A program made the translations under genes and the position numbers. A stretch of 64,000 nt of DNA from a virus, in IMG/VR virus record IMGVR_UViG_3300044695_005756, positions 1 to 64,000 of that record. The stretch is one strand, 5' to 3'. This document shows positions 8,010 to 39,817 of the stretch, one piece after another. The stretch's first letter is position 1. Every line of letters begins with the position of its first letter. The notes under the pieces are model-generated. The model had not been told where the DNA came from. It saw only the letters and a program-made list of their open reading frames with translations, and searched no databases.

Positions 8010-8031
8010 TGAATATCTCCTTATGATTTCT

Positions 8032-8039
8032 TATTTATA
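8032..8039 (-). promoter_or_regulatory. T4-type late promoter box TATAAATA before gp22
   Basis: A perfect TATAAATA on the minus strand, 23 bases upstream of the gp22 ATG and just upstream of the AAGGAGA ribosome site, in the short gap between gp21 and gp22. Confidence 0.75.
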
Positions 8040-8043
8040 AATT

Positions 8044-10159: not shown

Positions 10160-10359
10160 TACTGTTCTACTGTTTCTTCTTCATCGTCGGCAATTTCTTC
10201 GTGGCTTTGCTCTTGCCCGCCAAAAAGAGTAGTAGCGATTTCTTGCTTACGGCTTTGGAGCGCATCGAACGCTTTTGCGGATAAAACATTTTCTATGCCT
10301 TCTTTTGCTGCAATACTTTCTCCAGCAGCAATATCGTTAATAATATCTTGAATATTCAT
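10159..10359 (-). CDS. gp67: Prohead core protein gp67-like
   Basis: 66 residues: an amphipathic N-terminal half (NIQDIINDIAAGESIAAKEGIENVLSAKAFDALQSRKQEI) followed by a very acidic tail (EEIADDEEETVEQ). This is the signature of T4 gp67, an abundant small prohead core protein needed for correct head shape, and the position directly after the portal gene is the same. AGGTT-type ribosome site upstream of the ATG and a perfect late promoter box 26 bases upstream. Confidence 0.82.
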   Translation of the reverse strand: MNIQDIINDIAAGESIAAKEGIENVLSAKAFDALQSRKQEIATTLFGGQEQSHEEIADDEEETVEQ

Positions 10360-10370
10360 AATAACCTTTC

Positions 10371-12041
10371 TTATCTGCGTCTATTATTTATACTGACCAC
10401 GGATCTGTTTACCTCATCATCAAGACCAGGTGTCAATGACTCTTCTGTTTCTTCGGTATTTTCAACTGTATTGTCTTCTGGTTCTGCTTGTGGTACAGCA
10501 CCTTGTGAAGGTCCACCTAATACGGGACCTTGCATGTCATCAGGTAGTGTATCTTTTTCCTCTTGAATTTCTTTTTGCATGTCTTCAATTTCTTCATCAG
10601 TCATCATGAGAACTTTATTCATAACATAATGATTTGAGAAATAACGACCTACAAAAGGATCAACTAGGCTTACCATCTGCAATCTATTTTGAAGTAATTC
10701 AGCTTCACGCAATTCAGTAAAGTTGTTGTCTTTACGGAAGTCATAATAGATGTCTTCTTTAAACTCATCCCATTCTTCACGGGTACAAATACCTTTAAGT
10801 ACCAATTGTACTTTGAGTGCATCATCAAATATCTGTGAAAACTTATTACGAAGACGAACAACAAATTTTGCGAACTTCAATTCATCACGGGTAATTTCTT
10901 GACTTTTACCCATTCCAGCAAATCCGCCCTCTTGTGATTCTAGTCTTGAATATGGTACGTTAAGAGACTGTAAAAGTTTCTTTTGAAAATACTTAACGTC
11001 TTCTAACTCACCAAGATTCTGACCAGCTGGTAATGTGGTAATCTCTGTACCTTTACCACCTTCTCTTCGTGGTAACCAGAAGTCTTCAAGCATTGACATG
11101 TGTTTACGTTCATCACGGATCTCACCAGTGTTCGCATCGTAAACTAATTTGTTTCGATACTTGATCATGATGTCACGCAGGTATTGTTCTGCTTTACCAC
11201 GTGGTAGATTACCAACGTCAATGTAAAAAATACGGCGTTCTGGTGCGCGTGAAATTCTGTAAATAACAATCGCATCTTCAATCATACGCAACTGATTCAA
11301 TGGTTTGATTGCTTTGTGTAGATACGAAATGACAAAAGTATTTTTTGCATCCATCAGACCTGAATTAATATTAATAATCGAATCTGGTGCAATACGAATA
11401 CCTTGTCCTACATTTGATGTAAATGTTTGCGTGGTTGTTCCACGATCATTGTAGACATAGTATTCAGCAACCGATACAACAATCATTGCTCCTGTTTTCG
11501 GATCACGATCTTTTTTAATCTCACGCACCTTACGAATTTTGCGTGGATCAATGTATCTAAGTTCTTGAATACCTTCTTTGGGATTCTTATCGTTTACGAC
11601 AACATGATAAAAGATACGACCGTCAATATACCAACGCTTAAATAAATCGTCAGCAAGATTACTGAAGTTTAACATTTTTAATACATTGTCAAACTCTTCA
11701 GCAATTTTCTTTTTAATCGATTCTGGTTGTTTGAGATTGTCTAAAACGATATCGACAACTTTACCTGCTTCATCATGAGTGATAGCTTCATTAACGATTT
11801 CATCAATTGCCATTTGACACTCAGGGTGATTGGACATCTCACGATATCGAGTGATGAGTTCAATTTCATTTCGAACTGAACCTTCTAAATCGACATAGGT
11901 ACCGTAGTACGCATTTTGCGTAACGGTAACTGCACCATCATCTACGGTCGCAGAAGGCAAAGCAAAGGATGCCTGTTCGGGTTTTTCAACCTTGACGACA
12001 TCCTTTGAGCCTATTGTAAAGCCAAAAAGTTTAATTGCCAT
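10371..12041 (-). CDS. gp20: Portal vertex protein gp20
   Basis: 556 residues (T4 gp20 about 524). It contains the conserved portal signatures YREMSNHPECQMAIDEIVNEAI, WYIDGRIFYHVVV, ELRYIDPRKIRKVREI, YRISRAPERRIFYIDVGNLPRGKAEQYL, and the MLEDFWLPRREGGKGTEI motif widely used as a cyanomyovirus marker. The 12-mer portal nucleates prohead assembly and is the DNA channel. Acidic Pro/Thr-rich C-terminus. AGGATG ribosome site precedes the ATG. It follows the gp19 terminator at 12060-12083. Confidence 0.97.
   Translation of the reverse strand: MAIKLFGFTIGSKDVVKVEKPEQASFALPSATVDDGAVTVTQNAYYGTYVDLEGSVRNEIELITRYREMSNHPECQMAIDEIVNEAITHDEAGKVVDIVLDNLKQPESIKKKIAEEFDNVLKMLNFSNLADDLFKRWYIDGRIFYHVVVNDKNPKEGIQELRYIDPRKIRKVREIKKDRDPKTGAMIVVSVAEYYVYNDRGTTTQTFTSNVGQGIRIAPDSIININSGLMDAKNTFVISYLHKAIKPLNQLRMIEDAIVIYRISRAPERRIFYIDVGNLPRGKAEQYLRDIMIKYRNKLVYDANTGEIRDERKHMSMLEDFWLPRREGGKGTEITTLPAGQNLGELEDVKYFQKKLLQSLNVPYSRLESQEGGFAGMGKSQEITRDELKFAKFVVRLRNKFSQIFDDALKVQLVLKGICTREEWDEFKEDIYYDFRKDNNFTELREAELLQNRLQMVSLVDPFVGRYFSNHYVMNKVLMMTDEEIEDMQKEIQEEKDTLPDDMQGPVLGGPSQGAVPQAEPEDNTVENTEETEESLTPGLDDEVNRSVVSINNRRR
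10385..10392 (-). promoter_or_regulatory. T4-type late promoter box TATAAATA before gp67
   Basis: A perfect TATAAATA on the minus strand inside the last codons of gp20, 26 bases upstream of the gp67 ATG. It could restart transcription for the prohead core genes. Confidence 0.65.
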
Positions 12042-12059
12042 TAAAAATCATCCTATATT

Positions 12060-12083
12060 AAAAAGTAGGGCAAAAGCCCTACT
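12060..12083 (-). terminator. Rho-independent terminator after gp19
   Basis: On the minus strand a perfect 8-pair stem AGTAGGGC / GCCCTACT with a TTTT loop is followed by TTTTAA. It begins 1-2 bases after the gp19 stop, between gp19 and gp20. Confidence 0.85.
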
Positions 12084-19747: not shown

Positions 19748-22700
19748 TTATGATACACTTCCCATAATTACACAAACAGTAGGACTTACAAACAATATTG
19801 TTGCAACGCCTCTTGTGGCAAGACTGACTGAAGATACATCCAAATTAAAACCTGCAATGTAGGCAGTAGTGATGCTGCAAGTAATAGTTACACTAGCACC
19901 TGTATTATTAAAGATTGAGATTGCATCACCAGCAGCAAAGACATTATTTGGAATTATAATAGAACCACCTGTGCCAATTTCAACAAATTCACCTACATCA
20001 GTTACCTCTAATGTGTACTGAGATGTTTTTTGTCCTACAGCAGGTATGTTTCTGAAACCCATTGTAAAACTTTGGTCTGGTATAGTGATTGTTCTGCTTG
20101 CAGTTAAAGTATCAGGAACAATAGTTGCTGAATAAGAACTTGTTCCTCCAGAACGTCCTTTGATGGTAATTGAATCTTGTGTCGTAGCATTTTCAACCAC
20201 AAGTCCATCTGTAGAACTAACCGTAACTTTAGCTGTAACTGTACCGCCATTGTTTGCGTCTAATGAATTATTCGCACGAATGAAAGCTGCGTTAGCGTGT
20301 AAGAAAGATGCATTTGTTGAGTCAAATATTGTATTCGTTCTTACTAATAAATCAATTCCCTTTGTTAAAACATACGTTGAATGTAAGTTAGCATTGAGAG
20401 TATCAATTACAAAAGAAGGATCAGTAATATCAATATTATTATTTTCTCCAACTTCAGGAGTATAACCTTTAAATAAGTACCATTCTTTTGTTACTGAATC
20501 ACGAATCAAACCTGAATGAGCATTTGTGCCATCATTATAATGACCAGCAAATCCTAAATCTTTCAAATCTGAGATATAATTTCCTGCACCAAGAACAATT
20601 ACTGTATCATTTGCAACCAACGTAGTCGCATTTACACTAAATGTTTGACCAGTAACAACTAAGTTACCCACAAACAAGTTATTGGTAACAGTCAAACTAC
20701 CAGTGATTGTACCACCATTATTTGCGTCAATTGAATTGTTTGCGCGAATAAATGCAGCGTTTGCTGTATTAAATGCTGGCTGAACTTGTGGTGCTACATT
20801 ATTAGCCGAATTGAAAGCTGCATTCGCATGATCATAAGCCGAATTTGATTGTATGAATCCAGAATTCGCATGAATAAATGCAGCGTTTGCGGTATTAAAT
20901 GCTGGCTGAACTTGTGGTGCTACATTATTAGCCGAATTGAAAGCTGCATTCGCATGATCATACGCCGAATTCGCTTGAATAAATCCAGAATTAGATTGAT
21001 TACGGGCGTATTGGTCTATTGATCCAGCCGCAATAGTGTTGGCAAAAACAAAAGCCGCATTTGCATGATCAAACGAAGCATTGGCTTGTATGAATCCAGA
21101 ATTTACATGAATGAATGCAGCGTTCGCTTGAATGAATCCAGAATTGGCGTGATCACGGGAATATTGATCTACTGATCCTGCTGAAAGTGTGTTAGCCCAA
21201 ATAAATGCGGCGTTAGCATGATCATATGCAGAATTTGTTTTTATGAATCCAGAATTCGCATGAATAAACGCAGCGTTAGCATATTCACCAGTCGAATTCT
21301 GTGACTGATATGCAGAGTTGGCATGAACAAATGCAGAATTGGCATATTGTCCAGTTGCGTTTTGGCTTTGATATGCGGCATTCGCATGATCAAAAGATGC
21401 ATTGGCTTTGATAAATGCGGAGTTGGCGTATGATGATGCAGCAGAACCACCTAAATCATCATAATTTGTGCCGTCATTTGTAAACTGCCATCTATCCAAT
21501 GTTTCATTCCATAACAGATAAACATTGGCAGAAGAACCTCTATCAACTTCTATTCCAGCATCTACGGTAGGAGCAGAAGACTGATCTATTGCCGCATTTA
21601 ATGTAATAATGTTATCAGCAATAAGAATTGTTGATGTGTTTACATATGTTGTTTGTCCAGTTACAGTCAAGTTACCTGTAATACGAACATCACCTGTAAC
21701 GGTACCACCATTGTTAGCGTCTAATGCATTGTTAGCACGAATAAATGCAGCGTTGGCATATTGACCTGTTGCATTTTGTGATTGATATGCCGAATTTGCA
21801 TGATCAAAAGATGCATTTGTTTGGATGAATCCGCTGTTCGCATGGATAAATGCACCGTTAGCTAATGTGAATGCTGCATTGGCATATTGACCTGTTGCAT
21901 TTTGACTTATGTACGCAGCATTAGCATGATCGAATCCAGAATTGGCATGAATAAATGCCGCGTTCGCATATTGACCTGTAGCATTCTGCGATTGATAAGC
22001 CGAGTTCGCATGATTGAATGCATAATTCGCATGTAAGAATGATGAATTTGCTTGAATAAATCCACTATTTGCATGATCGAAAGATGCATTTGCTTGAATA
22101 AATCCACTATTTGCATGAATGTAAGCAGCGTTAGCGGCAGCAAAAGCACCATTAGCGTTAGCAAAAGCGGCATTAGCAGCAGCAAAAGCACCATTCGCGT
22201 TGGCAAACGCAGCATTCGCGTGATCATAAGAACTGTTTGCTTGGATAAATCCACTATTTGCATGATCAAAGGATGAATTAGTTTTTATGAATCCGCTGTT
22301 CGCATGAATGAATGCGGCATTAGTATCATGGTACGCAGAGTTAGCTTGAATGAATCCAGAATTTGCGTGATCAAAAGATGCATTCGCTTGAATGAATCCA
22401 CTATTCGCATGATCGTAAGCGGCATTTGATTTTGCAAATGCACCATTAGCATTTGCGAATGCAGCATTAGCTTTGGCAAAAGCCCCGTTAGCGTTAGCAA
22501 ATGCAGCATTGGCATCATGATACGCCGAGTTTGCTTGGATAAATCCACTATTCGCATGATAGAAAGCGGAGTTCGCATAATGACCAGTTGCATTCTGACT
22601 TAGATACGCAGCATTCGCGTGATCGTATGCAGAATTTGTTTTTATGAATCCAGAGTTTGCGTGGATAAATGCCGCATTGGTATCATGATAAGCTGAATTG

Positions 22701-25700
22701 GCTTGGATGAATCCAGAATTCGCGTGATGATATGCATCATTTGCTTTTGCATAAGCGGCATTTGCGTTTGCAAAAGCATAGTTAGCATGATGAAAAGCAG
22801 AATTTGTTTGTATAAATCCACTATTTGCGTGAATGAATGCAGCGTTTGTTAAATCAAAGATTATATTTGTTCTTGGTAATAAATCAATACCTTTAATTGT
22901 AACAAAAGTCGAACGTAAATTGGCGTGAAGAGTATCGATTTCAAAAGAAGGATCATTGAGATCGACGTTATTATTTTCTCCAATTTCAGGAGTATAACCT
23001 TTGAACAGATGCCATTCTTTTGTGGTAGCATCTCGGATAAGACCCGAATGAGCATTTGTGCCATCGTTATAGTGACCAGCAAATCCTAAATCTCTAGTGT
23101 CGGCAAAATAGTTACCCTCTCCTAATACAATAACTGTATCGTTAGAGACAAGTGTTCCTGCATTGATACTAAATGTTTGACCTGTAACAAATATATTGCC
23201 TACAAATAAATTATTGGTAACAGTCAAACTACCAGTAATCGTACCACCATTATTTGCGTCAATCGAATTATTGGCTCTTAAAAATGCAGCATTCGCATAT
23301 TGACCTGTAGCATTCTGTGAGATATACGCAGCATTTGTGTGATCGTATGCACTATTTGCTTGTATGAATCCGCTGTTTGCATGATCGAATGCTGAATTAG
23401 TTTTAATGAATGCAGCATTAGCGTCATGATACGCAGAGTTAGCTTGAATAAATGCCGAGTTTGCATGATGATATCCATCATTTGCTTTTGCATAAGCGGC
23501 ATTTGCGTTTGCAAATGCATAAGAAGTGTAGACGTATAAATCTACAGTTCCATTTGAGCCAAAGAAGTAGTTTGAGAAAATGGCATTTGCACCAGTAATG
23601 CTTCCATTTCCACCAACTGTTGTAACTGATTCTGTTGTTATGTTACCAGTAACACTAAATTCACCTGCAACATTAATCGACGCTGATACATTACCACCAA
23701 CGTTGGCATCTAACGAATTGTTTGCGCGAATAAATGCAGCGTTTGCTGTATCAAATGCTGAATTCGTTTTTATGAATGCAGAGTTGGCATGATTAAATGC
23801 ATAGTTTGTATGCAAGAATGCCGAATTTGTTTTAATGAATGCGGAGTTAGCATGAATGAAAGCGGCATTTGCGTATTGACCAGTTGCATTCTGTGAGATG
23901 TACGCAGCATTAGCATGATCGTAAGACGAATTTGTTTTAATAAACGCAGAGTTTGCATGTAAGAAAGATGCATTAGCATGTAAGAATGCAGCGTTTGTAT
24001 CGTGATATGCAGAATTAGCTTGAATAAATCCAGAGTTCGCATGAATGTATGCTGCGTTAGCAGCGGCAAATGCACCGTTGGCATTTGCGAATGCTGCATT
24101 AGCTTTAGCGAAAGCACCGTTGGCATTTGCGAATGCTGCATTAGCATCATGATACGCACTATTTGCTTGAATAAATCCAGAGTTCGCATGGATGTAAGCC
24201 GCATTAGCAGCAGCAAAAGCACCATTTGCATTAGCAAAAGCAGCGTTAGCTTTAGCAAAAGCACCATTCGCATTGGCAAACGCGGCGTTGGCATCGTGGT
24301 ATGCACTATTTGCTTGGATAAATCCAGAGTTTGCGTGATGAAACGCCGCGTTTGCATCATGATACGCAGAGTTTGCTTGGATGAATCCACTATTCGCATG
24401 ATTGAACGAATAATTTGCATGTAAGAATGCAGAATTCGTTTTTATAAATGCTGAATTGGCATGAATAAATGCTGCATTGGCATCGTGATATGCGGAGTTT
24501 GCTTGAATGAATCCAGAGTTTGCATGATCAAAAGATGCATTCGCTTTGATAAATGCAGAGTTGGCATACGATGATGCTGAAGTTGCACCTAAATCATCAT
24601 AACCAATACCGTCATTCGTAAATTGCCACTTATCTAGTGTTTCATTCCACAACAGATATACATTTGCCAAAGCACCGCGATCAACTTCAACTCCTGCGTC
24701 AGAAATAGGTGTCTGTGACTGATTTACTGCTGCATTGAGTGTAATAATATTGTCGGCAATTAATACCGTAGAAGTGTTTACATATGTTGTCTGTCCAGTT
24801 ACAGTCAAGTTACCTGTAATACGAACATCACCTGTAACCGTACCACCAACATTCGCATCAAGTGCATTGTTGGCACGAATGTATGCATAATTTGCATGTA
24901 AGAATGCAGAGTTTGTTTTTATGAATGCACTATTCGCTTGAATGTATGCTGCATTAGATTTGGCAAAAGCACCATTTGCATTTGCAAATGCGGAGTTGGC
25001 TTGTCTGAATGCACCGTTGGCATATACACCAGCAGAATTCGCTGCAATAAATGCACCATTGGCGTTTGCAAAAGTTGCATTCGCTTGAATATAAGCGGAA
25101 TTTGCGTGTATGAATCCTGAATTTGCGTGTATGTAAGCTGCATTTGATTTAGCAAAAGCACCGTTAGCGTTTGCGAATGCTGCATTTGCGTGATCATAAG
25201 AAGAATTCGCATGAATAAATGCTGCGTTGGCATATTGTCCTGTTGCATTCTGTGACAAATAAGCTGCATTAGCTAAATCAAAAGCCGCATTTGTTTGAAT
25301 GAAACTTGAATTCGCATGAATAAACGCACCATTTGCTACCGTAAATGCAGCGTTCGCATATTGACCTGTTGCATTTTGGCTTAGGTATGCCGCATTAGCA
25401 AGATCAAATGCTGCGTTAGTTTGAATAAATGCGCTATTTGCTTGAATATATGCAGCATTAGCGGCGGCATATGCGCCATTCGCATTAGCAAAAGCAGCGT
25501 TTGCGTGATGAAATCCAGAATTCGCATGAATGAATGCACCATTAGCTACTGTAAATGCAGCATTTGCATAATTGCCAGTTGCGTTCTGTGATTGATACGC
25601 AGAATTTGCATGTATGAATGCTGATTGAGCGTGAGTTATTCCTGCATTAGCTTGAATAAATCCAGAATTTGCGTGGATAAATGCTGCGTTGGCATATTGA

Positions 25701-26986
25701 CCAGTTGCATTTTGTGAGATATAAGATGCGTTTGCGTGATCAAAAGATGCATTTGCTTTAATGAATGCCGAGTTGGCGTAAGAAGATGCGGAAGAACCAC
25801 CTAAATCGTCATAACCTACACCATCGTTTGTAAACTGCCATTTCTCTAGAGTTTCATTCCACAACAAGTAGACGTTAGACAAAGCGCCGCGATCAACTTC
25901 AATTCCTGCATCGGCAACTGGAATTGATGACTGATTGATTGCAGCATTTAATGTAATGATATTATCAGCAATTAATACAGTTGAAGTATTAACATATGTT
26001 GTATTACCTGTGACAGTAAGATTACCTGTAATACGAACATCACCTGTAACTGTACCGCCAACATTCGCACTCAGAGAATTGTTTGCTCTTAAAAATGCTG
26101 CATTGGCATATTCACCTGTTGCATTTTGACTTTGATATGCGGCATTTGCATGTACGAAAGCCGAGTTCGCGTATTGTCCAGTGGCATTTTGAGAAATGTA
26201 ACTAGAGTTGGCATGATTAAACGCGGCATTTGTTTTTATAAACGAACTATTTGCGTGAATAAAAGCAGCATTAGCGTCATGATACGCAGAGTTGGCTTGG
26301 TTAAATGCTGCATTAGCATATTGACCAGTTGCATTCTGTGATTGGTAAGCGGAGTTCGCATGTAAGAATGCAGCGTTTGTTTTAATAAATGCTGAGTTGG
26401 CATGAATAAAGCCAGCGTTAGCGTGAATGAATGCCGCGTTAGCTTGAGTGAATGCTGAGTTTGTATATTCACCAGTTGCATTTTGACTTAAAAATGCAGC
26501 GTTTGCTCTATCGAATGCAAGATTTACTTGTGCAAAACTAGAGTTTGCATGAATGAATGCAGCGTTAGCATATTGACCAGTCGCATTTTGTGAGATGTAA
26601 GATGCGTTCGCATGGTCAAATGCGGAATTAGTTTTAATGAACGCGGAGTTGGCATGTAAAAATGCGGCGTTCTGTGAAATGTAAGATGCGTTTGCATGAT
26701 CGAATGATGCGTTTGCTTTAATGAAAGCACCGTTTGCTTGTGCATATGCGGCTGTGACATTAGTGAGTGTGCTATTTGCCGCTTCAAACGCGCCATTCGA
26801 ACGATCAAATGCGTAGATTGAACGTAGATACGATTCATATCCACCAATAGGTACTGCTCCTGTTCCAGCTGGAGTTCCTATGTATAACGTATTACTGCTG
26901 TATGAATAACCTGGTTCACCAACATTTAGTGAAGATGGCGCGTTTGTTACTAATGATCTTTTTATTTGAATAGGTGTATTTGCCAT
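19748..26986 (-). CDS. Giant heptad-repeat tail fibre (2412 residues)
   Basis: The N-terminal about 55 residues form a phage fibre attachment-type domain (QIKRSLVTNAPSSLNVGEPGYSYSSNTLYIG). Most of the rest is a 7-residue repeat, [A/T/Q]-N-x-x-[F/Y]-x-x, as in ANSGFIQ and ANAAFIH. Ala and Phe/Tyr alternate 3 and 4 apart, a coiled-coil spacing, so I infer a very long trimeric shaft. Beta modules interrupt it: three copies with VTGDVRITGNLTVTG (about 25770-26080, 24560-24880, 21430-21735), two with GSLTVTNNLFVGN (22855-23270, 20320-20735) and one different (23520-23740). The C-terminal about 85 residues form a domain shared with two other fibres and with a free-standing 88-residue protein. The DNA repeats in 21-bp units. 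Probably the host-binding or long side fibre. Confidence 0.85.
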   Translation of the reverse strand: MANTPIQIKRSLVTNAPSSLNVGEPGYSYSSNTLYIGTPAGTGAVPIGGYESYLRSIYAFDRSNGAFEAANSTLTNVTAAYAQANGAFIKANASFDHANASYISQNAAFLHANSAFIKTNSAFDHANASYISQNATGQYANAAFIHANSSFAQVNLAFDRANAAFLSQNATGEYTNSAFTQANAAFIHANAGFIHANSAFIKTNAAFLHANSAYQSQNATGQYANAAFNQANSAYHDANAAFIHANSSFIKTNAAFNHANSSYISQNATGQYANSAFVHANAAYQSQNATGEYANAAFLRANNSLSANVGGTVTGDVRITGNLTVTGNTTYVNTSTVLIADNIITLNAAINQSSIPVADAGIEVDRGALSNVYLLWNETLEKWQFTNDGVGYDDLGGSSASSYANSAFIKANASFDHANASYISQNATGQYANAAFIHANSGFIQANAGITHAQSAFIHANSAYQSQNATGNYANAAFTVANGAFIHANSGFHHANAAFANANGAYAAANAAYIQANSAFIQTNAAFDLANAAYLSQNATGQYANAAFTVANGAFIHANSSFIQTNAAFDLANAAYLSQNATGQYANAAFIHANSSYDHANAAFANANGAFAKSNAAYIHANSGFIHANSAYIQANATFANANGAFIAANSAGVYANGAFRQANSAFANANGAFAKSNAAYIQANSAFIKTNSAFLHANYAYIRANNALDANVGGTVTGDVRITGNLTVTGQTTYVNTSTVLIADNIITLNAAVNQSQTPISDAGVEVDRGALANVYLLWNETLDKWQFTNDGIGYDDLGATSASSYANSAFIKANASFDHANSGFIQANSAYHDANAAFIHANSAFIKTNSAFLHANYSFNHANSGFIQANSAYHDANAAFHHANSGFIQANSAYHDANAAFANANGAFAKANAAFANANGAFAAANAAYIHANSGFIQANSAYHDANAAFANANGAFAKANAAFANANGAFAAANAAYIHANSGFIQANSAYHDTNAAFLHANASFLHANSAFIKTNSSYDHANAAYISQNATGQYANAAFIHANSAFIKTNSAFLHTNYAFNHANSAFIKTNSAFDTANAAFIRANNSLDANVGGNVSASINVAGEFSVTGNITTESVTTVGGNGSITGANAIFSNYFFGSNGTVDLYVYTSYAFANANAAYAKANDGYHHANSAFIQANSAYHDANAAFIKTNSAFDHANSGFIQANSAYDHTNAAYISQNATGQYANAAFLRANNSIDANNGGTITGSLTVTNNLFVGNIFVTGQTFSINAGTLVSNDTVIVLGEGNYFADTRDLGFAGHYNDGTNAHSGLIRDATTKEWHLFKGYTPEIGENNNVDLNDPSFEIDTLHANLRSTFVTIKGIDLLPRTNIIFDLTNAAFIHANSGFIQTNSAFHHANYAFANANAAYAKANDAYHHANSGFIQANSAYHDTNAAFIHANSGFIKTNSAYDHANAAYLSQNATGHYANSAFYHANSGFIQANSAYHDANAAFANANGAFAKANAAFANANGAFAKSNAAYDHANSGFIQANASFDHANSGFIQANSAYHDTNAAFIHANSGFIKTNSSFDHANSGFIQANSSYDHANAAFANANGAFAAANAAFANANGAFAAANAAYIHANSGFIQANASFDHANSGFIQANSSFLHANYAFNHANSAYQSQNATGQYANAAFIHANSGFDHANAAYISQNATGQYANAAFTLANGAFIHANSGFIQTNASFDHANSAYQSQNATGQYANAAFIRANNALDANNGGTVTGDVRITGNLTVTGQTTYVNTSTILIADNIITLNAAIDQSSAPTVDAGIEVDRGSSANVYLLWNETLDRWQFTNDGTNYDDLGGSAASSYANSAFIKANASFDHANAAYQSQNATGQYANSAFVHANSAYQSQNSTGEYANAAFIHANSGFIKTNSAYDHANAAFIWANTLSAGSVDQYSRDHANSGFIQANAAFIHVNSGFIQANASFDHANAAFVFANTIAAGSIDQYARNQSNSGFIQANSAYDHANAAFNSANNVAPQVQPAFNTANAAFIHANSGFIQSNSAYDHANAAFNSANNVAPQVQPAFNTANAAFIRANNSIDANNGGTITGSLTVTNNLFVGNLVVTGQTFSVNATTLVANDTVIVLGAGNYISDLKDLGFAGHYNDGTNAHSGLIRDSVTKEWYLFKGYTPEVGENNNIDITDPSFVIDTLNANLHSTYVLTKGIDLLVRTNTIFDSTNASFLHANAAFIRANNSLDANNGGTVTAKVTVSSTDGLVVENATTQDSITIKGRSGGTSSYSATIVPDTLTASRTITIPDQSFTMGFRNIPAVGQKTSQYTLEVTDVGEFVEIGTGGSIIIPNNVFAAGDAISIFNNTGASVTITCSITTAYIAGFNLDVSSVSLATRGVATILFVSPTVCVIMGSVS
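20740..26800 (-). repeat. 21-bp coding tandem repeats of the giant fibre shaft
   Basis: Degenerate direct repeats of 21 bases (7 codons) run through the shaft, interrupted by the beta modules. Longer near-identical duplications are seen, for example 20755-20842 against 20880-20965 (TGCTGGCTGAACTTGTGGTG and flanks) and 24020-24170 against 24185-24340. Because the period is a multiple of three, all reading frames stay open across long stretches. Confidence 0.85.
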
Positions 26987-29794: not shown

Positions 29795-32700
29795 TTAAAG
29801 ATTACCATTAAAATATGCTGCTGTAACAATTCCTAAAGGAACTTCCGCTCCTGTTGAAATTTTTTGTCCTACTTCTGCATTATACGGAACGAAATGAATT
29901 TCACCATTTGGCATAAGAACACCTCCTCCATGAGCTACAAATGAATTAGTATACACTAAAGAGTATGTAGACACAATACCTGAAGCGGATATTTTTTGAC
30001 CTACAATTGCGCTGCCTGGAACAAAGTGTACGTCACCATTTGGCGCAAGAACTGCACCTTCATAATTAAATTGATTACCGTATTTTACAGGCGTGGTATA
30101 TTGTTGATTTTTAACGATAAAGACTCTTCCTAAGCCATCCGAGTATTGAAATACTAAATGTCCATCCGCGTCTATTGTAGCATTTTTACCTTGAGGATTA
30201 AAAGTACCAAAAAAAGGACCTGTATTGTAATATTCAGTAAAAAATCCATTTGGAAACATTCTTGATGGAAGAGGAGCTAAATGAGGAATAAAATAAATTG
30301 ATCCATCAGGAAGTAAAACGCTTCCCCAATTCGTGCCTCCCGTGTAATTTGTGTTTATGAGTGAATATGTTGAAACTACACCTGTTCTTGATATTTTTTG
30401 TCCAACAAGGGCTTGAAATGCAGCAAAATGAATTTCGCCATTTGGAGCAAGAGTACCTCCAATATAAGCTGATGTAGTGGTATATGCTAATGCATACGTT
30501 GATACAACTCCGCTAGCGGATACTTTTTGCCCTCTTACAGCGTTATAAGGAACAAAATGAATGTCGCCGTTTGGTGCAAGAACACCACCAGAATAAAGAT
30601 TGGGATTCGCTGCTGATGTTGTGTAAACTAATGCATATGTCGATGCAACACCATCAGCAGATATTTTTTGTCCTCTGTTTGCATTATACGGAACAAAATG
30701 AAGTTCACCATTTTGTGAAAGAACTCCACCATAATATCCAAACGAAGTAGTATATGCCAATGCATACGTTGATATTATGCCATTCACGCCGTTATTATTA
30801 AACAATGAACCTCGATCAACATTTCTTTGCAGAGTTCTGTTTAAACTTATCTCAGCTTGCTCGGAAAGGTATTGTTCTATCGATGGATTAACAAGATCAG
30901 CATAATAAGTAGTCCCATTTGCAGCTGGATAAGATGCGGTAGTATCAGTAGAAACTAAAGTACCAGGTAAAGATTTTGGTAATATTGTAGCAGTTAAAGC
31001 TTTTTTCGCTTTTGTGAAAACTGTTTGTCGTGATATGAGTTCGTATTTTCCAATTCCTAACGAATAACCAACGGGAACAAGTGATTGAGGATAAATTGAA
31101 CTGGCATATGGAATAACATTTGAAGTGTCTGAAGAATCATGCGCTCGTCTTATAAGGACATTTGGTTTATTGACCAGCTTCATCCCATATCGCTGAGTAG
31201 TTTGTTGAATAAAATACACATCTCCAGATTCGGAAAGAACGCCTCCTTGATGAATACGCTGCAATATCGGATACGTTGATATTACACCAGCGGATGATAT
31301 TTTTTGACCGACTTGTGCGGAATCTGGAACAAAATGAACATCGCCTCGACTATCAAGAACACCACCACGGTATGCACCACTTCCAGAGGTAATTACTAAT
31401 GAATACGTCGATACTACACCAGCGGATGATAATTTTTGTCCTCTGTTGGCAAAATAAGGAACAAAATGAGTGTCACCATTTGGTGCAAGAACACCACCCC
31501 AATAAGACGCACCAGCGGTATACACTAATGAATATGTCGATGTAACACCATCAGCAGATATTTTTTGTCCAACTCTTGCACTATAAGGAACAAAGTGTAC
31601 GTCACCGTTTGGCGCAAGAACACCACCTTGATAAGCAGTAGCAGTTGTGTATACCAACGAATATGTTGAAACATAAATGGGCACACTTTCGTTAGTTAAT
31701 AATTTCTGGCCTCTATTTGCATTGAAAGGCACAAACTGAACATCTCCACTAACATCAAGAACACCACCAGCATATGCAGCGGCTGTTGTGTACGCTAATG
31801 AATATGTTTGTACGATTCCATCGGAAAATATTTTTTGTCCTACTCTTGCAGAATCTGGAACAAAATGAATACTGCCATTACCGTCAAGAACACCGCCATC
31901 ATATGCAGCGGTTGTTGTGTACGCTAATGAATATGTTGTAGGATATTGAGATAAAAATTTATTGAACTCTATAACTTGTCCAACTTCTGCTTCATATGGA
32001 GCAAGATAAAAGGTGTTGCCTGTACTATCCATGGCACCACCAAGGTATGGCTGATTGGAAGCTGTGTATGCTAATGCGTATGTTGATACAACACCATCAG
32101 AAGAAACTTTTTGTCCTACTTTTGCATTATAAGGTGCAAAATGTATATCTCCATTATATGCTTTTCCGCCATAAGCATATGCACTAGAAGTTGTGTATAC
32201 TAATGAATATGTAGACACGACACCAGCAGAAGAAACTTTTTGCCCTCTGTTTGCAAGGAGTGGCACAAAATGTATATCTCCGTTGTTATCAAGAACACCA
32301 CCCGAATATGCAGCAGTAGTAGTATACACCAATGAATATGTTGATACAACACCAGCAGAAGAAACTTTTTGCCCTCTGATCGCACTATAAGGAACAAAAT
32401 GAACATCGCCGTTACTATCAAGAACACCACCTCGATAAGCACCAGAAATCGTATATACCAACGAATATGTTGATATGATACCAGCGGATGATATTTTTTG
32501 TCCTCTTGTGGCAGAAAAAGGCACGAAATGAATGTCGCCATTGTTATCAAGAACACCACCATTGTATGCGGAACCAGCGGTTAATACTAATGAGTATGTC
32601 GATACGACACCAGCAGAAGAAACTTTTTGTCCAACTCTTGCACTAAAATTTACAAAATGAATATCACCATTGTTATCTAAAACGCCACCTTCATACGCAT

Positions 32701-34150
32701 TAGTAACTGTATGAACCAATGAAAATGTTGATACTACGCCAGCAGACGATATTTTTTGTCCTCTGTTAGCATCATTGGGTATAAAATACACATCACCATT
32801 ATTATCAAGAACGCCTCCAGCATATGCACCACCAGACGTTGTATATACTAATGAGTAAGTTGTAGGATAGTGTTCAAGTGTGACATCAAATTGTAACTTT
32901 TGTCCTACTCTTGCACTAAAAGGTACAAAATGTGCTTCGTTATTGTTATTTAAAACACCGCCATCATATGCAGCAGAAGCGGTAGTATATGCTAATGCAT
33001 ATGTTGACACAACTCCTGACGATGAAATTTTTTGCCCTCTAGCGGCACTAAGCGGAATAAAATGTACATCGCCATTCGGTGCAAGAATACCGCCAGCGTA
33101 TGCAGTAATAGATGTGTATACTAATGAATACGTCGATACTACACCAGCAGATGATAGTTTTTGTCCTATATCCGCATTATAAGGAACAAAATGTATATCA
33201 TCGTTATTATCTAAAATACCTCCTTTATACTTCGCAAGAGCGGTACTGTTTACTAAAGAGTATGTTGTTATAACACCAGCAGACGATATTTTTTGTCCTA
33301 TGACAGCATTAAAGGGCACAAAATGAATATCGTTATTACTATCTAAAACACCACCGTTATATGCATTAGTAGCTGTATACACCAATGAAAATGTTGACAC
33401 GACACCAGCAGACGATATTGTTAGTCCTCTATTTGCATTATAATTTACAAAATAAATGTCGTTATTATTTGCAAGAACACCACCAGAATATGCACCAGCA
33501 GTTGTATATACTAACGAATACGTTGATGGAACTTGAGGTGCGAATCCATTTGGAGTTACTTTTTGTCCTCTGTTTGAATTATATGGCACAAAATATACAT
33601 CGCCATTCGGTGCAAGAACACCACCAGAATATCCAAAATTAGACGTTGTGAATATTAATGAGTAAGTTGTTATAACACCAGCAGATGATATCATTTGTCC
33701 TCTAGTGGCATTCCGAGGCACAAAATGTATATTACCAAGAGCGTCTAGAACTGCTGCACTCCAAAAATTAGCTCCAGATACTGAATAAGGATAAGTAAAT
33801 ACTGTACCATCTGTTGTTATTCTTATTCCTCTATCACCATCTACATTTACAATATGAATTTCATTATTGCTGGTGCGAACTGCTCCCGCAAGCTCACTAA
33901 CAGAGACAGAGGCTGTGCGGAGTGCATCATTATATGAATGAAGAACTTGAGGATAATCTACAAGAGTTGCTGTACCTACTTCCCATTTATCACCATCGAC
34001 AATTGAATAGTCAAACTCATCACCCATTGAATAGGTTGCAGCAGAAATTTTTTCGACATTGGCCGAACTCAATCTTATATTGGGTTCGAACGCATCTTCA
34101 CGCTGTGAAAAAGTACCTGTTTGTGATCTATCTTTTACTTGGCGTGCCAT
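29795..34150 (-). CDS. Giant beta-propeller tail protein, 21+7 blades (1451 residues)
   Basis: The largest of three tandem paralogues. The N-terminus ends with YSIVDGDKWEVGTATL, part of a tail-fibre N-terminal domain. A first array of 21 repeats of about 43 residues follows; core AY.GGVLDNNGDIHFVPF.A..GQK.SSAGVVSTYSLVYTT, the sequence of a four-stranded propeller blade. Four odd linkers break the array after blades 3, 8, 15 and 17 (about 33540, 32890, 31955 and 31690). A spacer (about 30780-31180, containing GIGKYELISRQTVF) leads to a second array of 7 blades (29800-30775). Probably a host-surface-binding fibre; no enzyme motif. Neighbours are two shorter paralogues upstream and the glycosyltransferase-methyltransferase downstream. 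Confidence 0.85.
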   Translation of the reverse strand: MARQVKDRSQTGTFSQREDAFEPNIRLSSANVEKISAATYSMGDEFDYSIVDGDKWEVGTATLVDYPQVLHSYNDALRTASVSVSELAGAVRTSNNEIHIVNVDGDRGIRITTDGTVFTYPYSVSGANFWSAAVLDALGNIHFVPRNATRGQMISSAGVITTYSLIFTTSNFGYSGGVLAPNGDVYFVPYNSNRGQKVTPNGFAPQVPSTYSLVYTTAGAYSGGVLANNNDIYFVNYNANRGLTISSAGVVSTFSLVYTATNAYNGGVLDSNNDIHFVPFNAVIGQKISSAGVITTYSLVNSTALAKYKGGILDNNDDIHFVPYNADIGQKLSSAGVVSTYSLVYTSITAYAGGILAPNGDVHFIPLSAARGQKISSSGVVSTYALAYTTASAAYDGGVLNNNNEAHFVPFSARVGQKLQFDVTLEHYPTTYSLVYTTSGGAYAGGVLDNNGDVYFIPNDANRGQKISSAGVVSTFSLVHTVTNAYEGGVLDNNGDIHFVNFSARVGQKVSSAGVVSTYSLVLTAGSAYNGGVLDNNGDIHFVPFSATRGQKISSAGIISTYSLVYTISGAYRGGVLDSNGDVHFVPYSAIRGQKVSSAGVVSTYSLVYTTTAAYSGGVLDNNGDIHFVPLLANRGQKVSSAGVVSTYSLVYTTSSAYAYGGKAYNGDIHFAPYNAKVGQKVSSDGVVSTYALAYTASNQPYLGGAMDSTGNTFYLAPYEAEVGQVIEFNKFLSQYPTTYSLAYTTTAAYDGGVLDGNGSIHFVPDSARVGQKIFSDGIVQTYSLAYTTAAAYAGGVLDVSGDVQFVPFNANRGQKLLTNESVPIYVSTYSLVYTTATAYQGGVLAPNGDVHFVPYSARVGQKISADGVTSTYSLVYTAGASYWGGVLAPNGDTHFVPYFANRGQKLSSAGVVSTYSLVITSGSGAYRGGVLDSRGDVHFVPDSAQVGQKISSAGVISTYPILQRIHQGGVLSESGDVYFIQQTTQRYGMKLVNKPNVLIRRAHDSSDTSNVIPYASSIYPQSLVPVGYSLGIGKYELISRQTVFTKAKKALTATILPKSLPGTLVSTDTTASYPAANGTTYYADLVNPSIEQYLSEQAEISLNRTLQRNVDRGSLFNNNGVNGIISTYALAYTTSFGYYGGVLSQNGELHFVPYNANRGQKISADGVASTYALVYTTSAANPNLYSGGVLAPNGDIHFVPYNAVRGQKVSASGVVSTYALAYTTTSAYIGGTLAPNGEIHFAAFQALVGQKISRTGVVSTYSLINTNYTGGTNWGSVLLPDGSIYFIPHLAPLPSRMFPNGFFTEYYNTGPFFGTFNPQGKNATIDADGHLVFQYSDGLGRVFIVKNQQYTTPVKYGNQFNYEGAVLAPNGDVHFVPGSAIVGQKISASGIVSTYSLVYTNSFVAHGGGVLMPNGEIHFVPYNAEVGQKISTGAEVPLGIVTAAYFNGNL

Positions 34151-34153
34151 GTC

Positions 34154-37100
34154 TTATAACTTATTGAAAAATGGACTGAGAACAATTTCTGTATCCAATG
34201 GTCGACTAAATGTGTATAGTTTGTACTGAGTTGCATCATTACGAATCGCAATTATGTTTCCATCAAAATCTAAATTTGCTCCAATACAAAGTGGTGTTCC
34301 AGAAATCAAAGGTGATGTGATTAACGATTGTATGCCAGAAGGCGTAATTTTTAAAATACCTGATGTTCCATTATAAGGAACAAAGTATATGTTTCCTGCT
34401 GGATCTAAAACACCACTTTGAAAAGCACCAGCAGTTGTGTATACTAATGAATATGTAGACACAACACCAGCAGCAGAAACTTTTTGCCCTATAGTTGCAG
34501 AATGAGGCACAAAATGCACATCGCCATTTGGTGCAAGAACACCACCAACGTAAGCATCGGCAGCAGTATATACTAAAGAGTATGTAGACACAATACCTGA
34601 AGCGGATATTTTTTGACCTACGATTGCGTTGCCTGGTACAAAATGCACATCGCCATTTGGTGCAAGAACACCACCAGCATATGTATCAGCAGCAGTATAT
34701 ACTAATGAATATGTTGATACAACACCAGCAGCAGAAACTTTTTGTCCGACTATCGCGTTGCGTGGAACAAAGTGAATATCACCATTTGATGCAAAGATGC
34801 CACCAATATATGCTAAAGATGTTGTGTAAACTAATGCATATGTCGATACAACACCAGCAGCAGATATTTTTTGCCCTACTGTTGCGTTACACGGAACGAA
34901 ATGAACATCACCATTCGATGCAAGAACACCACCAGCATATGCATAATTAGCCGTTGTGTACACCAATGCATATGTTGATACTGCACCGTATTGAGATATT
35001 TTTTGACCTCTGTTAGCACTATCTGGAACAAAATGAATATCACCATTAAGTGCAAGAACACCACCCCAGTATGCACTAGCAGTTGTGTATACTAATGAAA
35101 ATGTAGACACTACAGGATTTTTAAATGTTGTTCCTGCCGTAATACTCTTCATCCACGCTCTTTGAAGTCCTCTCCAAGAAGTCAACGTGGAATTAATTGA
35201 TGAATCATCTCCTGTTGGAACAGCGCCTTGCACAACACTTGAAGGTAACGGTATGAATACGTCTTTTATTCCTGATGAAAAATTCACTTTGTCTGGAACA
35301 TTGGCAGTTACATTAGATGATGAAATGACTAAATCTCTACTCAATGTTGAAGCAAGTCTTTGTCCAACTGTTGATCCAAAAGGAACAAAATGTAATTCAC
35401 CTTGTTTATCAATAACACCACCGTTATATGCTAAACTGCCAGTCGAAGTAAGTGGATAAGTTGATACGACACCAGCAAGAGATATTTTTTGTCCAATTCC
35501 AGAATCGTAAGGAATAAAATGAACTTCTCCATCGCGTGTTTGAATACCGCCACGATAGGCAGTACTGCCTGTATTTACCAATGAATACGTTGATACAACA
35601 CCGTATTGAGATATTTTTTGTCCGACTGTCGCACTACTTGGCACAAAATGCACATCGCCGTTTCGTGCAAGGACACCACCGTCATATGCGCCAACAGTCG
35701 TATACACAAGTGAATAAGTTGATACGACACCAGCAAGAGATATTTTTTGTCCTCTGATAGCGTTATTTGGTATAAAATGTACATCACCGTTTGGCGCAAG
35801 AACACCACCAGCGTATGCACCAGCTGCGGTAGTATATACTAATGAATATGTTGATACTACACCAGCTGATGATAATTTTTGCCCCCTATTACCGACAAAA
35901 GGAACAAAATGAACATCGCCGTTACTATCAAGAACACCACCTCGATAAGCAGTAGCAGTTGTGTATACCAACGAATATGTTGAAGAAAATATTGAGAAAA
36001 ATTTGTTAAACTCCGCTACTTGTCCTACTGTAGCAGAAGAAGGAACAAATTGTAATTTATTTTGGCCGTCTAGAACACCACCATTGTAATGTCCAGGTGA
36101 AGTTCGTACTAATGTATATGTCGATACAACGCCAGCAGATGATATTTTCTGTCCTCTTGTAACACCATTTTGCACAAAATGTACATCGCCTCGACTATCA
36201 AGGACACCACCACGATATGCACCACCTCCAGAAGTAATTACTAATGAATATGTTGATACTACACCAGCGGATGATAATTTTTGTCCTACTCTTGCTTCAT
36301 AGTTTACAAAATGTATATCACCTCGACTATCAAGAACACCGCCGGAAAAAGAGCGAACTGTGGTATACACCAATGAATATGTTGATACTACACCAGCAGA
36401 AGATACTTTTTGTCCTCTGTTTGCACTAAAAGGAATAAAATGAACGTCACCATTTCTGTCTAATACTCCACCAGAATATGCAAAAGATGCCGTATATACT
36501 AATGGGTATGTATAAGTGCCAAACTGATCCAACTTTAGTCCTACTCTTGCATTATAAGGAACAAAATAAATGTTTCCATTGCCATCATAAACACCTCCAT
36601 CATAAGCACCGCCAACAGTATATGCTAAATCATAAGTTGATGCGACACCAAGGTAATTCACTTTTTGTCCTATGTCGGCATTATAAGGAACAAAATGAGT
36701 ATCGCCTAAAAAAAGTCCATCAAATACTCCTCCAGAATATGCATTCAAAGTGGTGTACACCAAATCATAAGTTGATACAACACCAGCAGATGATATCATC
36801 TGTCCTACAGACGCATTAAAAGGAGCGAAATGAATATCCTTTCTATCATTCAAAGCACCACCTTGATACGCTAAAGACACGGTGTAAACTAAAGGATATG
36901 TGCTAGAATAAACTTCGGGCGTGATATCGAACTGTAACTTTTGTCCTATACCAACACTATAAGGAATAAAATGCATTTCACCAAGACGATTTACTACACC
37001 CTCAAAATATGCACTATCAGCGGTATGCGCCAATGAGTATGTTGATACAACGCCGTATTGAGATATTTTTTGACCGACTTCCGCACTATAAGGAACAAAA

Positions 37101-37381
37101 TGAACGTCAGCATTTCCTGAAATAGTTGGCGCAAGAACACCGCCTGCATAACCATTTCCAGTTGTGTACACTAATGAATATGTTACAGGAACTTGATACA
37201 TTGATACTGTTCCTATTCCAACCTCAAAAGCATTTCGATCTTCGATTGTGTAATAAGTTTGATTATTATGACATACGTTCGCAAATGATTGATAACCTGA
37301 AACTGCGTAATCAAGTGTTACGTTTCCTGTTCCAGTTGTATTTGTTGTGACGAACGCTCTATCTAAAGCAACAAAAGCCAT
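34154..37381 (-). CDS. Giant beta-propeller tail protein, 14+7 blades (1075 residues)
   Basis: The N-terminal about 63 residues match a widespread phage tail domain (TTNTTGTGNVTLDYAVSGYQSF, then YYTIEDRNAFEVGIGT). Fourteen propeller repeats follow (about residues 77-678). The interrupted domain then resumes with LSRDLVISSSN (680-690) and VNFSSGIKDVFIPLPSS (about 699-715). After a short spacer come seven more repeats to the C-terminus, which ends LSPFFNKL like the neighbour's LSPFLNKL. In the first array two unusual linkers (residues 149-160 with LQFDITPE, and 456-468 with AEFNKFFSIFSS) enclose exactly seven blades. Role inferred as surface-binding fibre. Four bases separate it from the next gene. 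Confidence 0.85.
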   Translation of the reverse strand: MAFVALDRAFVTTNTTGTGNVTLDYAVSGYQSFANVCHNNQTYYTIEDRNAFEVGIGTVSMYQVPVTYSLVYTTGNGYAGGVLAPTISGNADVHFVPYSAEVGQKISQYGVVSTYSLAHTADSAYFEGVVNRLGEMHFIPYSVGIGQKLQFDITPEVYSSTYPLVYTVSLAYQGGALNDRKDIHFAPFNASVGQMISSAGVVSTYDLVYTTLNAYSGGVFDGLFLGDTHFVPYNADIGQKVNYLGVASTYDLAYTVGGAYDGGVYDGNGNIYFVPYNARVGLKLDQFGTYTYPLVYTASFAYSGGVLDRNGDVHFIPFSANRGQKVSSAGVVSTYSLVYTTVRSFSGGVLDSRGDIHFVNYEARVGQKLSSAGVVSTYSLVITSGGGAYRGGVLDSRGDVHFVQNGVTRGQKISSAGVVSTYTLVRTSPGHYNGGVLDGQNKLQFVPSSATVGQVAEFNKFFSIFSSTYSLVYTTATAYRGGVLDSNGDVHFVPFVGNRGQKLSSAGVVSTYSLVYTTAAGAYAGGVLAPNGDVHFIPNNAIRGQKISLAGVVSTYSLVYTTVGAYDGGVLARNGDVHFVPSSATVGQKISQYGVVSTYSLVNTGSTAYRGGIQTRDGEVHFIPYDSGIGQKISLAGVVSTYPLTSTGSLAYNGGVIDKQGELHFVPFGSTVGQRLASTLSRDLVISSSNVTANVPDKVNFSSGIKDVFIPLPSSVVQGAVPTGDDSSINSTLTSWRGLQRAWMKSITAGTTFKNPVVSTFSLVYTTASAYWGGVLALNGDIHFVPDSANRGQKISQYGAVSTYALVYTTANYAYAGGVLASNGDVHFVPCNATVGQKISAAGVVSTYALVYTTSLAYIGGIFASNGDIHFVPRNAIVGQKVSAAGVVSTYSLVYTAADTYAGGVLAPNGDVHFVPGNAIVGQKISASGIVSTYSLVYTAADAYVGGVLAPNGDVHFVPHSATIGQKVSAAGVVSTYSLVYTTAGAFQSGVLDPAGNIYFVPYNGTSGILKITPSGIQSLITSPLISGTPLCIGANLDFDGNIIAIRNDATQYKLYTFSRPLDTEIVLSPFFNKL

Positions 37382-37390
37382 AATTTTTCT

Positions 37391-39817
37391 TTAAAGTTTG
37401 TTTAAAAATGGACTAAGACAAGCATTTACAGGCAAAGGATTAACCGAAAGCGTTGCAATTTTTTGTCCTACTACACCAGAAAAAGGTGCGAAGTATATAT
37501 CACCGTTTGGCATAAGCGCACCACCGATATACGCACTTGCAACAACATACGGCAATGAGTATGTAGACACAACTCCAGAAGTGGATATTTTTTGACCTCT
37601 GTTGGCAGCAAATGGTATAAAATGTACATCACCGTTTGGCGCAAGAACACCACCAGCATATGCAGTAGCGACAGTATAAACAAGTGGATATGTCGATACA
37701 GCGCCATCAGCAGATATTTTTTGTCCTCTGTTTGCTGAATGAGGCACAAAATTTATGTCGCCATTAACTGCAAGAACACCACCAAGATACGCAGCAGCAA
37801 TACTGTACACTAATGAATATGTAGACACGACACCAGCGGCAGAAATTTTTTGTCCTCTGTTTGCATTAAATGGCACAAAGTGTACGTCACCGTTTGGCGC
37901 AAGAACACCACCAGCATATGCGGTAGTGGCTGTGTATATCAACGAATAAGTCGATACGACACCAGATGACGATATCATTTGTCCTCTGTTAGCTGAGTAA
38001 GGTACAAAATGTATGTCGCCGTTCGGAGAAACAACGCCTCCAACGTAAGCATCGGCAGCAGTATATACTAAGGAGTATGTTGACACAACGCCTGAAGCAT
38101 TTATTTTTTGACCTCTGTTAGCACTTCGCGGCACAAAATGTACATCACCGTTTGGTGCAAGAATACCGCCATAATACGCATTAGCGACTGTATGTAATAA
38201 AACATAAGTGGATGGAATACCCAACTTCGAAAGTTTTTGTCCTCTTACAGCGGAATGTGGCACAAAGTGTGTGTCACCATTTGGTGCAAGAATTGCTCCA
38301 GCATATCCAGAAGCAACAGTATATGGTAATGTAAATGTTGATGCGATACCAGCAGTATTCGCATTATCGTATGCATTTCCACCTAAAGCACTCTGTTCCA
38401 ATAAACCTCTAAATGGTTTCCATCCTGATAAATTAGAATCGATTTCATTATTATCAAATGTTGGTACTCCACCGACAGCAATCGAATTTGGATATACGAG
38501 TGAAATGTTTGCCGATGTAGTTAGATTGCTAGGCGATAGATAAATTGCTTGTCCGTTGTTCGATGAATCGAAAATTTTATCTCTTGTAATCGCATTTACT
38601 AAAACTCTTTGTGCTGCCGTAGCACTATGATTTGCAAATATAATTCCAATGTCATTGTTTGATGACAACGCTCCACCAAATAAACCAGCGGTTGATGTTA
38701 CTGCTAATGAATATGTGGTAAATATACCTAAACTTTGATCATATACAGTACCTACTCTTGCGCTATACGGAACAAAGTGAACATTACCATTTCTGTCCAA
38801 TACTCCGCCGGCATATGCATTTGTTGTTGTATAAGGTAATGGATATGTGGAACTTGAGACTAACGCAAGCATAACTGACGCATTATATGGAATACAATAT
38901 ACTTCACCAGGATAATTAGCAGAGAATGATCTCACTACGCCACCAATATATGCACCCGCTGTTGTGTACGGAAGACCATAAGTGGTTGCAATAAAATTGG
39001 CCATGTATTGCCCTACTTGTGCATTGAATGGAACAAAGTAGTTTCCGCCATTAACAGTATATCCACCTTGATATGCGCCTGCAGTAGTATATGCTAACGC
39101 CCAAGTTGATGCAATTGTATTAGTAGTGTCAATTGTTTGTCCTACCGCTGCGTTATACGGAACAAAATGAATATAGTAAGGATATGTGACTGTATCGACA
39201 ATTCCACCAGAATATGCACCAGCAACTGTGTATGCTAAAGAGTATGTTGACACAATACCTGCCGATGATACTTTTTGTCCTCTGTTGGCATTATAAGGAA
39301 TAAAATGTACTTCATTATCCCCACCAAGAACACCGCCCTGATATGCACCAGCAACTGTGTATGTTAATGGATATGTTGATACAACACCTGCCGATGATAC
39401 TTTTTGTCCTCTTGTGGCAGAAAAAGGCACGAAATGAATGTCGCCATTAGCGTCACGAACTGCTCCAGAATACGCTGTAGTTGCGGTTGCGGTAACGGCA
39501 AATGTTGAAACTATTGGAGATTTTCCGCGGTATGTTGCTTTTCCTATTTCCCATTCACCATTTTTAGGCTCAAGAGAATAATAAAACTCACTATTAAGAC
39601 TTCCCGAATAATCATTATCTACAAAAGCAAAATTTTTATATCCTGCAATCGTATAAGGTTTATACCCACTATAAGCTGGAATTCGTTCGTTATCGGTAAA
39701 GTTAGAAAAGTTTAAACCATCAGGATTTACTGGAGATGGTGTGTTCGCAAGAACCAGTGTTGAATTGCCACCAGAAAAAGTATTTCCACGTGTTCTACTA
39801 TTAAAAATTATCGTCAT
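37391..39817 (-). CDS. Beta-propeller tail protein, 7+7 blades (808 residues)
   Basis: The simplest of the three paralogues. The N-terminal about 100 residues include YYSLEPKNGEWEIGKATY, the first half of the tail domain. Seven blades follow (about 39500-38590), without the odd linkers. The second half of the domain (ITRDKIFDSSNNGQAIYLS, about 38580-38340) separates them from a second seven-blade array (38330-37400). Blade core: AYAGGVLAPNGDVHFVPFNANRGQKI. The C-terminus, LSPFLNKL, is shared with the 1075-residue neighbour. Probably part of the adsorption apparatus. No signal peptide or catalytic motif is visible. Confidence 0.85.
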   Translation of the reverse strand: MTIIFNSRTRGNTFSGGNSTLVLANTPSPVNPDGLNFSNFTDNERIPAYSGYKPYTIAGYKNFAFVDNDYSGSLNSEFYYSLEPKNGEWEIGKATYRGKSPIVSTFAVTATATTAYSGAVRDANGDIHFVPFSATRGQKVSSAGVVSTYPLTYTVAGAYQGGVLGGDNEVHFIPYNANRGQKVSSAGIVSTYSLAYTVAGAYSGGIVDTVTYPYYIHFVPYNAAVGQTIDTTNTIASTWALAYTTAGAYQGGYTVNGGNYFVPFNAQVGQYMANFIATTYGLPYTTAGAYIGGVVRSFSANYPGEVYCIPYNASVMLALVSSSTYPLPYTTTNAYAGGVLDRNGNVHFVPYSARVGTVYDQSLGIFTTYSLAVTSTAGLFGGALSSNNDIGIIFANHSATAAQRVLVNAITRDKIFDSSNNGQAIYLSPSNLTTSANISLVYPNSIAVGGVPTFDNNEIDSNLSGWKPFRGLLEQSALGGNAYDNANTAGIASTFTLPYTVASGYAGAILAPNGDTHFVPHSAVRGQKLSKLGIPSTYVLLHTVANAYYGGILAPNGDVHFVPRSANRGQKINASGVVSTYSLVYTAADAYVGGVVSPNGDIHFVPYSANRGQMISSSGVVSTYSLIYTATTAYAGGVLAPNGDVHFVPFNANRGQKISAAGVVSTYSLVYSIAAAYLGGVLAVNGDINFVPHSANRGQKISADGAVSTYPLVYTVATAYAGGVLAPNGDVHFIPFAANRGQKISTSGVVSTYSLPYVVASAYIGGALMPNGDIYFAPFSGVVGQKIATLSVNPLPVNACLSPFLNKL

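Follow-up and report, generated by a model that had tools for sequence, protein, structure and literature searches.

In the 64,000-nucleotide stretch analysed here (hereafter the window; positions 1 to 64,000 of the 94.5-kb virus record IMGVR_UViG_3300044695_005756 in IMG/VR), a tail protein of 1451 amino acids (aa), designated A, carries 21 consecutive β-propeller blades that probably form three seven-bladed rings nested one inside another: blades 9–15 inside a ring of blades 4–8 plus 16–17, which in turn lies inside a ring of blades 1–3 plus 18–21. We regard this arrangement, first suggested in an earlier note on this DNA, as the best explanation overall. The open reading frame (ORF) of A (29795–34150) stands in tandem with two paralogous genes, B (34154–37381, 1075 aa) and C (37391–39817, 808 aa). 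All three are on the minus strand, as are all features of A, B and C described below, and are built of near-uniform blades of approximately 43 residues. The virus record carries T4-type genes for the gp23 capsid protein, the gp20 portal protein, the terminase and the gp5, gp6 and gp8-like baseplate proteins, and the window includes the gp5, gp6 and gp8-like genes as well as wedge genes. The phage is T4-like, and A, B and C are tail proteins paralogous to one another.

By sequence, the three proteins belong to the Vgb family (Pfam PF24684, Vgb_lyase). A matched with an E-value of 1.3e-35 (123 bits), B with 3e-18 (66 bits) and C with 3e-23 (82 bits), against a curated cut-off of 50 bits, and the best-matching stretch of A was residues 448–702. 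The nearest solved relatives are the streptogramin and virginiamycin B lyases (PDB 2qc5, E-value 2e-12), which are seven-bladed propellers. A, B and C share the blade pattern of Vgb (PDB 2qc5 and 2z2n) and, by homology, would share its seven-bladed propeller of four-stranded blades. Whereas Vgb is an enzyme with one ring, these are phage tail proteins that appear to contain several; we claim them as relatives in fold only and not as lyases.

Blade arrays and atypical linkers

The arrays were parsed with a hidden Markov model (HMM) of the blade, built from the window's own units, which gave 21 then 7 blades in A, 14 then 7 in B, and 7 then 7 in C; one divergent blade in the C-terminal array of A and one in that of B were missed by the HMM and read by eye. 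The first array of A comprised 21 consecutive four-stranded blades at residues 88–987 (window about 31181–33889), so that this repeat detection bore out the count given in the earlier note. Blade 1 scored weakly (13.7 bits), and a step of 172 residues separated the 21 blades from the second array. The counts of 7, 14 and 21 in the tandem paralogues C, B and A, each followed by a separate seven, were taken as a point in favour of nesting.

Relatives were gathered with a DNA pattern derived from the blade, which yielded at least 118 viral stretches. Among the matches listed, the window included, 167 of the 187 distinct complete arrays had exactly seven blades, 175 of the 187 started at a D strand and approximately 150 ended at HMM column 37–38, in the C strand. 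The arrays of other lengths were in part those of the window itself, pieces of hits that the HMM had divided, or products of broken genes. These sequence comparisons indicate that seven blades with a 1+3 velcro closure are the rule in this blade family and, together with the homology to Vgb, they make closed seven-bladed rings in A, B and C well supported.

Long atypical C–D segments interrupt the first array of A exactly after blades 3, 8, 15 and 17, dividing it into 3|5|7|2|4 as previously read, and the linker motifs quoted in that reading are literally present. Blades 1–3 (residues about 77–197; 33560–33922), the proposed first part of the outer ring, lead into linker 1 (VTPNGFAPQVPS; 33524–33559), the proposed exit from the outer ring and entry to the middle ring, which carries a Pro found in relatives only at ring starts. 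Blades 4–8 (residues 210–418; 32897–33523) would begin the middle ring, and linker 2 (LQFDVTLEHYPT; 32861–32896) would enter the inner ring, made of the seven blades 9–15 (residues 431–726; 31973–32860), where Pfam Vgb_lyase also matched. Linker 3 (IEFNKFLSQYPT; 31937–31972) would return the chain to the middle ring for blades 16–17 (residues 739–816; 31703–31936), and linker 4 (LLTNESVPIYVS; 31667–31702) would return it to the outer ring for blades 18–21 (residues 829–990; 31181–31666).

B, which did not figure in the earlier note, splits into 2|7|5, and the leftover 2+5 blades again make seven. Blades 1–2 (36938–37183) and 10–14 (35351–35980) would form an outer ring around an inner ring of the seven blades 3–9 (36017–36901). 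The linkers at the two boundaries were homologous to linkers of A: linker 1 of B (LQFDITPEVYSS; 36902–36937) resembled linker 2 of A, which is of a KLQFD opening type, and linker 2 of B (AEFNKFFSIFSS; 35981–36016) resembled linker 3 of A, which is of an EFNKF closing type. In both proteins this opening and closing pair encloses exactly seven blades.

Long atypical hairpins were found at 4 of the 20 interior C–D positions of A and 2 of the 13 of B, versus 3 of 1097 in relatives, all three in a single protein (the C protein of the related phage L105). Closure into non-crossing sevens is achieved by 51 of the 4845 possible placements of four linkers at 20 positions in A and by 6 of the 78 placements of two linkers at 13 positions in B, the joint chance being about 8e-4. 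The value for B is the cleaner of the two, because A was picked out for its pattern, and it is strengthened by the linker identity common to both proteins. Blade similarity at a lag of seven was negative, and the intervals between linkers are therefore not explained by whole-ring copying.

The linkers also differ in kind from ordinary hairpins. Pro stood two residues before TYSL in 3 of the 6 linkers of the two proteins; among relatives, it did so at 4 of the 188 ring starts and in none of the 1097 interior D strands. The extended, unbroken interior hairpins of the L105 C protein had the usual Val or Ile, not Pro, before TYSL. To judge from these residues, the linker D strands of A and B look like ring starts rather than hairpins.

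A second contig (L001) contained a copy of A that was 100% identical, and another (L126/L002) contained an orthologue that was 87% identical and truncated in blade 12, in which the last two linkers (3 and 4 of A) and the ...|2|4 spacing were kept. In neither case does the array look like an assembly artefact. When further nested relatives carrying both linker motifs were sought, the matches were confined to this phage and to contigs that are near-identical to it or orthologous.

The split terminal domain and the proposed order of insertion

An HMM of the terminal domain, made from relatives in which this domain is uninterrupted, matched B on both sides of its first array: domain positions 4–79 at residues 1–62 (37196–37381; E-value 4e-18) and positions 66–144 at residues 677–759 (35105–35353; E-value 1e-21). 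The domain is split at the same place in the B orthologue of L105, whereas it is intact, with the ring after it, in single-ring relatives (L113 and L098) and in the protein at the A slot of L105. The sequence match thus shows a hairpin turn of the terminal domain of B replaced by a whole propeller assembly, which constitutes the outermost level of insertion. The split is clear in B and weaker in A and C. In A, the N-terminal half of this putative adaptor domain (residues 1–66; 33953–34150) aligned weakly with the uninterrupted domain of relatives, and the second half plus connector (residues 991–1127; 30770–31180) was the most divergent row of the alignment; A is nevertheless likely to carry its propeller assembly inserted in the terminal domain in the same way.

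The connector is followed by a separate C-terminal array in each protein. Six HMM blades and one divergent blade make up this array in A (residues 1128–1433; 29852–30769) and in B (34199–35104), and C has a C-terminal seven-bladed array (37454–38338) after a single seven-bladed N-terminal array without nesting (38606–39505). L105 encodes single-ring orthologues of B and C, and the ring of its B orthologue stands at the same place.

In the arrangement we propose, each paralogue would consist of a terminal domain with a propeller assembly in one hairpin, then a connector, then a free seven-bladed propeller. The inserted assembly of C would be a lone ring. That of B would comprise two, the second entering the first at the outer edge (the C–D hairpin) of its blade 2. 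In A, one ring would enter the outer ring after blade 3 and would itself receive another after its own fifth blade (blade 8). Each ring is expected to open with a D strand and to end with a C strand, in keeping with the customary 1+3 velcro closure. This would bring the two ends of a ring next to each other at the rim, like those of a C–D hairpin, so that a whole ring could take the place of a hairpin turn, and the two linkers of a pair would make up a short bridge of two strands. On balance, we favour the joint reading that rings were nested serially to a depth of three, with stages of one, two and three rings present together in a single genome and an orthologue without nesting in a related phage, and that the ring behaves as an insertable cassette; in that same reading the depth would be four levels if the terminal domain is counted.

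Alternative ring assignments and known multi-propeller proteins

The strongest competitor is that the blades close in chain order, as rings 1–7 and 8–14 (and 15–21 in A), with the chain crossing between rings at ordinary D–A loops, the first D strand pairing with the last C strand, and the long C–D segments being decorated hairpins. We consider this unlikely, yet it has real precedents. In Utp21, Aip1 and 2YMU, the two rings of a 14-blade chain are joined by the 14D–1A and 7D–8A loops (PMC3897721), and the protein WRAP is 2YMU (PMC6805158); we discarded the argument that steric constraints forbid seamless sequential sevens, since these proteins fold in that way (PMC3897721). Aip1, Utp21 and WRAP resemble the proposed B in having fourteen blades in two rings of seven, with repeats in which D comes first and ABC last (PMC3897721, PMC6805158). 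They differ from A and B in that their blades are assigned sequentially and cross at D–A loops, and the cited portions of both papers report no paired atypical C–D linkers (PMC3897721, PMC6805158).

Several of our own results also weigh against nesting. When blade similarity was grouped by ring, it did not favour the nested assignment, and the sequential split scored higher in B. The L105 C protein, which has one ring, also contains extended hairpins, and therefore a long hairpin alone does not mark a ring junction. Two further comparisons had little power: covariation between neighbouring blades, learned from 154 single rings, failed its positive control (the true closure partner was picked at 0.44–0.51), and when the blades of B were mapped to the one ring of its L105 orthologue, the nested assignment scored 844 and the linear assignments 824 and 774, values that are too close to be of use. 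What sequential rings leave unexplained is that the linkers stand exactly at non-crossing seven closures in both A and B. The homologous linker pairs, seven blades apart, would also fall at different phases of sequential rings, after blades 8 and 15 in A and after blades 2 and 9 in B; the negative lag-7 similarity excludes ring duplication as the cause of this, and the D strands of the A and B linkers are unlike those of hairpins.

It is much less probable that the blades form no closed sevens but an open solenoid or one large toroid. This reading draws on two low-confidence AlphaFold2 (AF2) models of B, neither of which contained a clean seven-bladed ring and which, taken at face value, also tell against nesting. 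The model of residues 55–692 computed without an alignment was solenoid-like, with a predicted local distance difference test (pLDDT) score of 54 and no fold match. With a closure-neutral alignment, in which A and the A orthologue spanned the chain and four-blade fragments covered blades 10–13, the model had Vgb-like blades, a pLDDT of 66, a predicted template modelling (pTM) score of 0.44 and a template modelling (TM) score of 0.65 to a seven-bladed ring. In richer alignments, MAFFT spread single rings across the 14 blades, which would have imposed closure, and these alignments were left unused. Both models are too poor to be given weight, and the homology to seven-bladed Vgb and the strict seven-blade rule in relatives argue against an open or oversized structure. 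Least probable of all are unequal sequential rings bounded by the linkers, since the linkers after blades 8 and 15 would delimit rings of 8, 7 and 6 blades in A, but B would then require rings of 2, 7 and 5 and the relatives are almost exclusively sevens.

The nested sevens of the earlier note have thus been strengthened by the 2|7|5 split of B, the ring-start-like linkers and the insertion in the terminal domain, while the assignment of blades to particular rings is one that we infer, the AF2 models being too poor to settle it. The accompanying suggestion of novelty has to be narrowed, because propellers inserted in propellers have been described. DDB1 and CPSF160 have, like the proposed A, three seven-bladed rings in one chain with a non-linear topology, and in the cited account one ring of CPSF160 is built from three discontinuous regions, as in DDB1 (PMC5760199). 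These eukaryotic proteins, compared here by topology and not by sequence, differ from A in that they are WD40-like and in that one ring assembled from three discontinuous regions is not serial nesting. Neither serial nesting of propellers nor nesting in a phage tail protein was found in the open-licence literature searched; what would be new here is serial nesting to a depth of three, in a phage.

If nesting to this depth is correct, it suggests a growth rule for repeat proteins, by which a closed ring can stand in for the turn of any hairpin, even within another ring, and can do so repeatedly. The phage would then offer a natural series of one, two and three rings, with a single-ring orthologue for comparison, and the growth of discontinuous multi-propellers such as DDB1 and CPSF160 would become testable.

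Variable loops and related loci

Variation among the blades was concentrated in two loops, with means of 2.20 bits in the D–A loop and 2.08 bits in the B–C loop versus 0.3–0.9 bits elsewhere. Comparison of A with the 87%-identical orthologue showed differences at 24% of D–A and 28% of B–C loop residues, as opposed to 5–9% in other parts of the blade, at an overall ratio of nonsynonymous to synonymous substitution rates (dN/dS) of 0.31. In standard propeller geometry, the D–A and B–C loops lie on one face, opposite the C–D turns. The linkers of A and B are carried at C–D turns and would therefore lie opposite the hypervariable face. A, B and C are encoded beside baseplate genes (gp5, gp6, gp8-like and wedge) and have a common terminal domain; the variable loops together with this neighbourhood fit a host-recognition protein. 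The three are most likely receptor-binding tail proteins with one hypervariable face, and the face bearing the D–A and B–C loops probably binds the host surface. Nesting would add binding faces without a longer fibre. If so, it would explain the multiplied hypervariable binding faces on one phage tail protein and represent a little-known route to enlarging a host-binding protein.

Single-ring phage propeller tail proteins (for example, those of L113, L117 and L137) and that of Cylindrospermopsis phage Cr-LKS4 share with A, B and C the blade type and a similar C-terminal ...NKF-type tail, and those on viral contigs also have the terminal domain and often lie in tandem genes; unlike A, B and C, each of them has a single ring, which follows a terminal domain that is not interrupted. 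Only two Cylindrospermopsis phages matched among isolate phages, and among bacterial genomes one Flavobacterium locus matched, with a single ring. After their last propeller, B, C and many relatives, even very distant ones, including Cr-LKS4 (L138) and the Flavobacterium locus (L139), have a conserved C-terminal tail of approximately LSxFxNKL/F, which may be an assembly or attachment signal.

Interrupted propeller genes were seen in other contigs. In L118 (minus strand; reverse-complement 7471–8857 and 9373–9784), the gene is broken after blade 4: the frame continues from four blades and a D strand into a Gly-rich domain before it stops, and a later ORF opens with three blades (4+3 = 7). The locus resembles a ring into which a further domain has been inserted, the gene having been divided. 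L052 has a similar interrupted gene, and L041 has the first half. In L127 (minus strand; reverse-complement 9913–12082), the terminal domain is broken at a different loop by another repeat (FKPDGLKMYV..., possibly another propeller), and insertion into this domain therefore seems to be recurrent. L045 and L056 contain arrays of 4 and 3 blades, respectively, after the type of connector that precedes a full seven in L034; these are either incomplete rings or the product of repeat collapse in assembly.

Elsewhere in the window, a 216-aa ORF (23770–24420, minus strand) lies in another frame inside a 2412-aa ORF (19748–26986) that had no Pfam match; L001 and L002 have an ORF of about 216 aa at the matching place.

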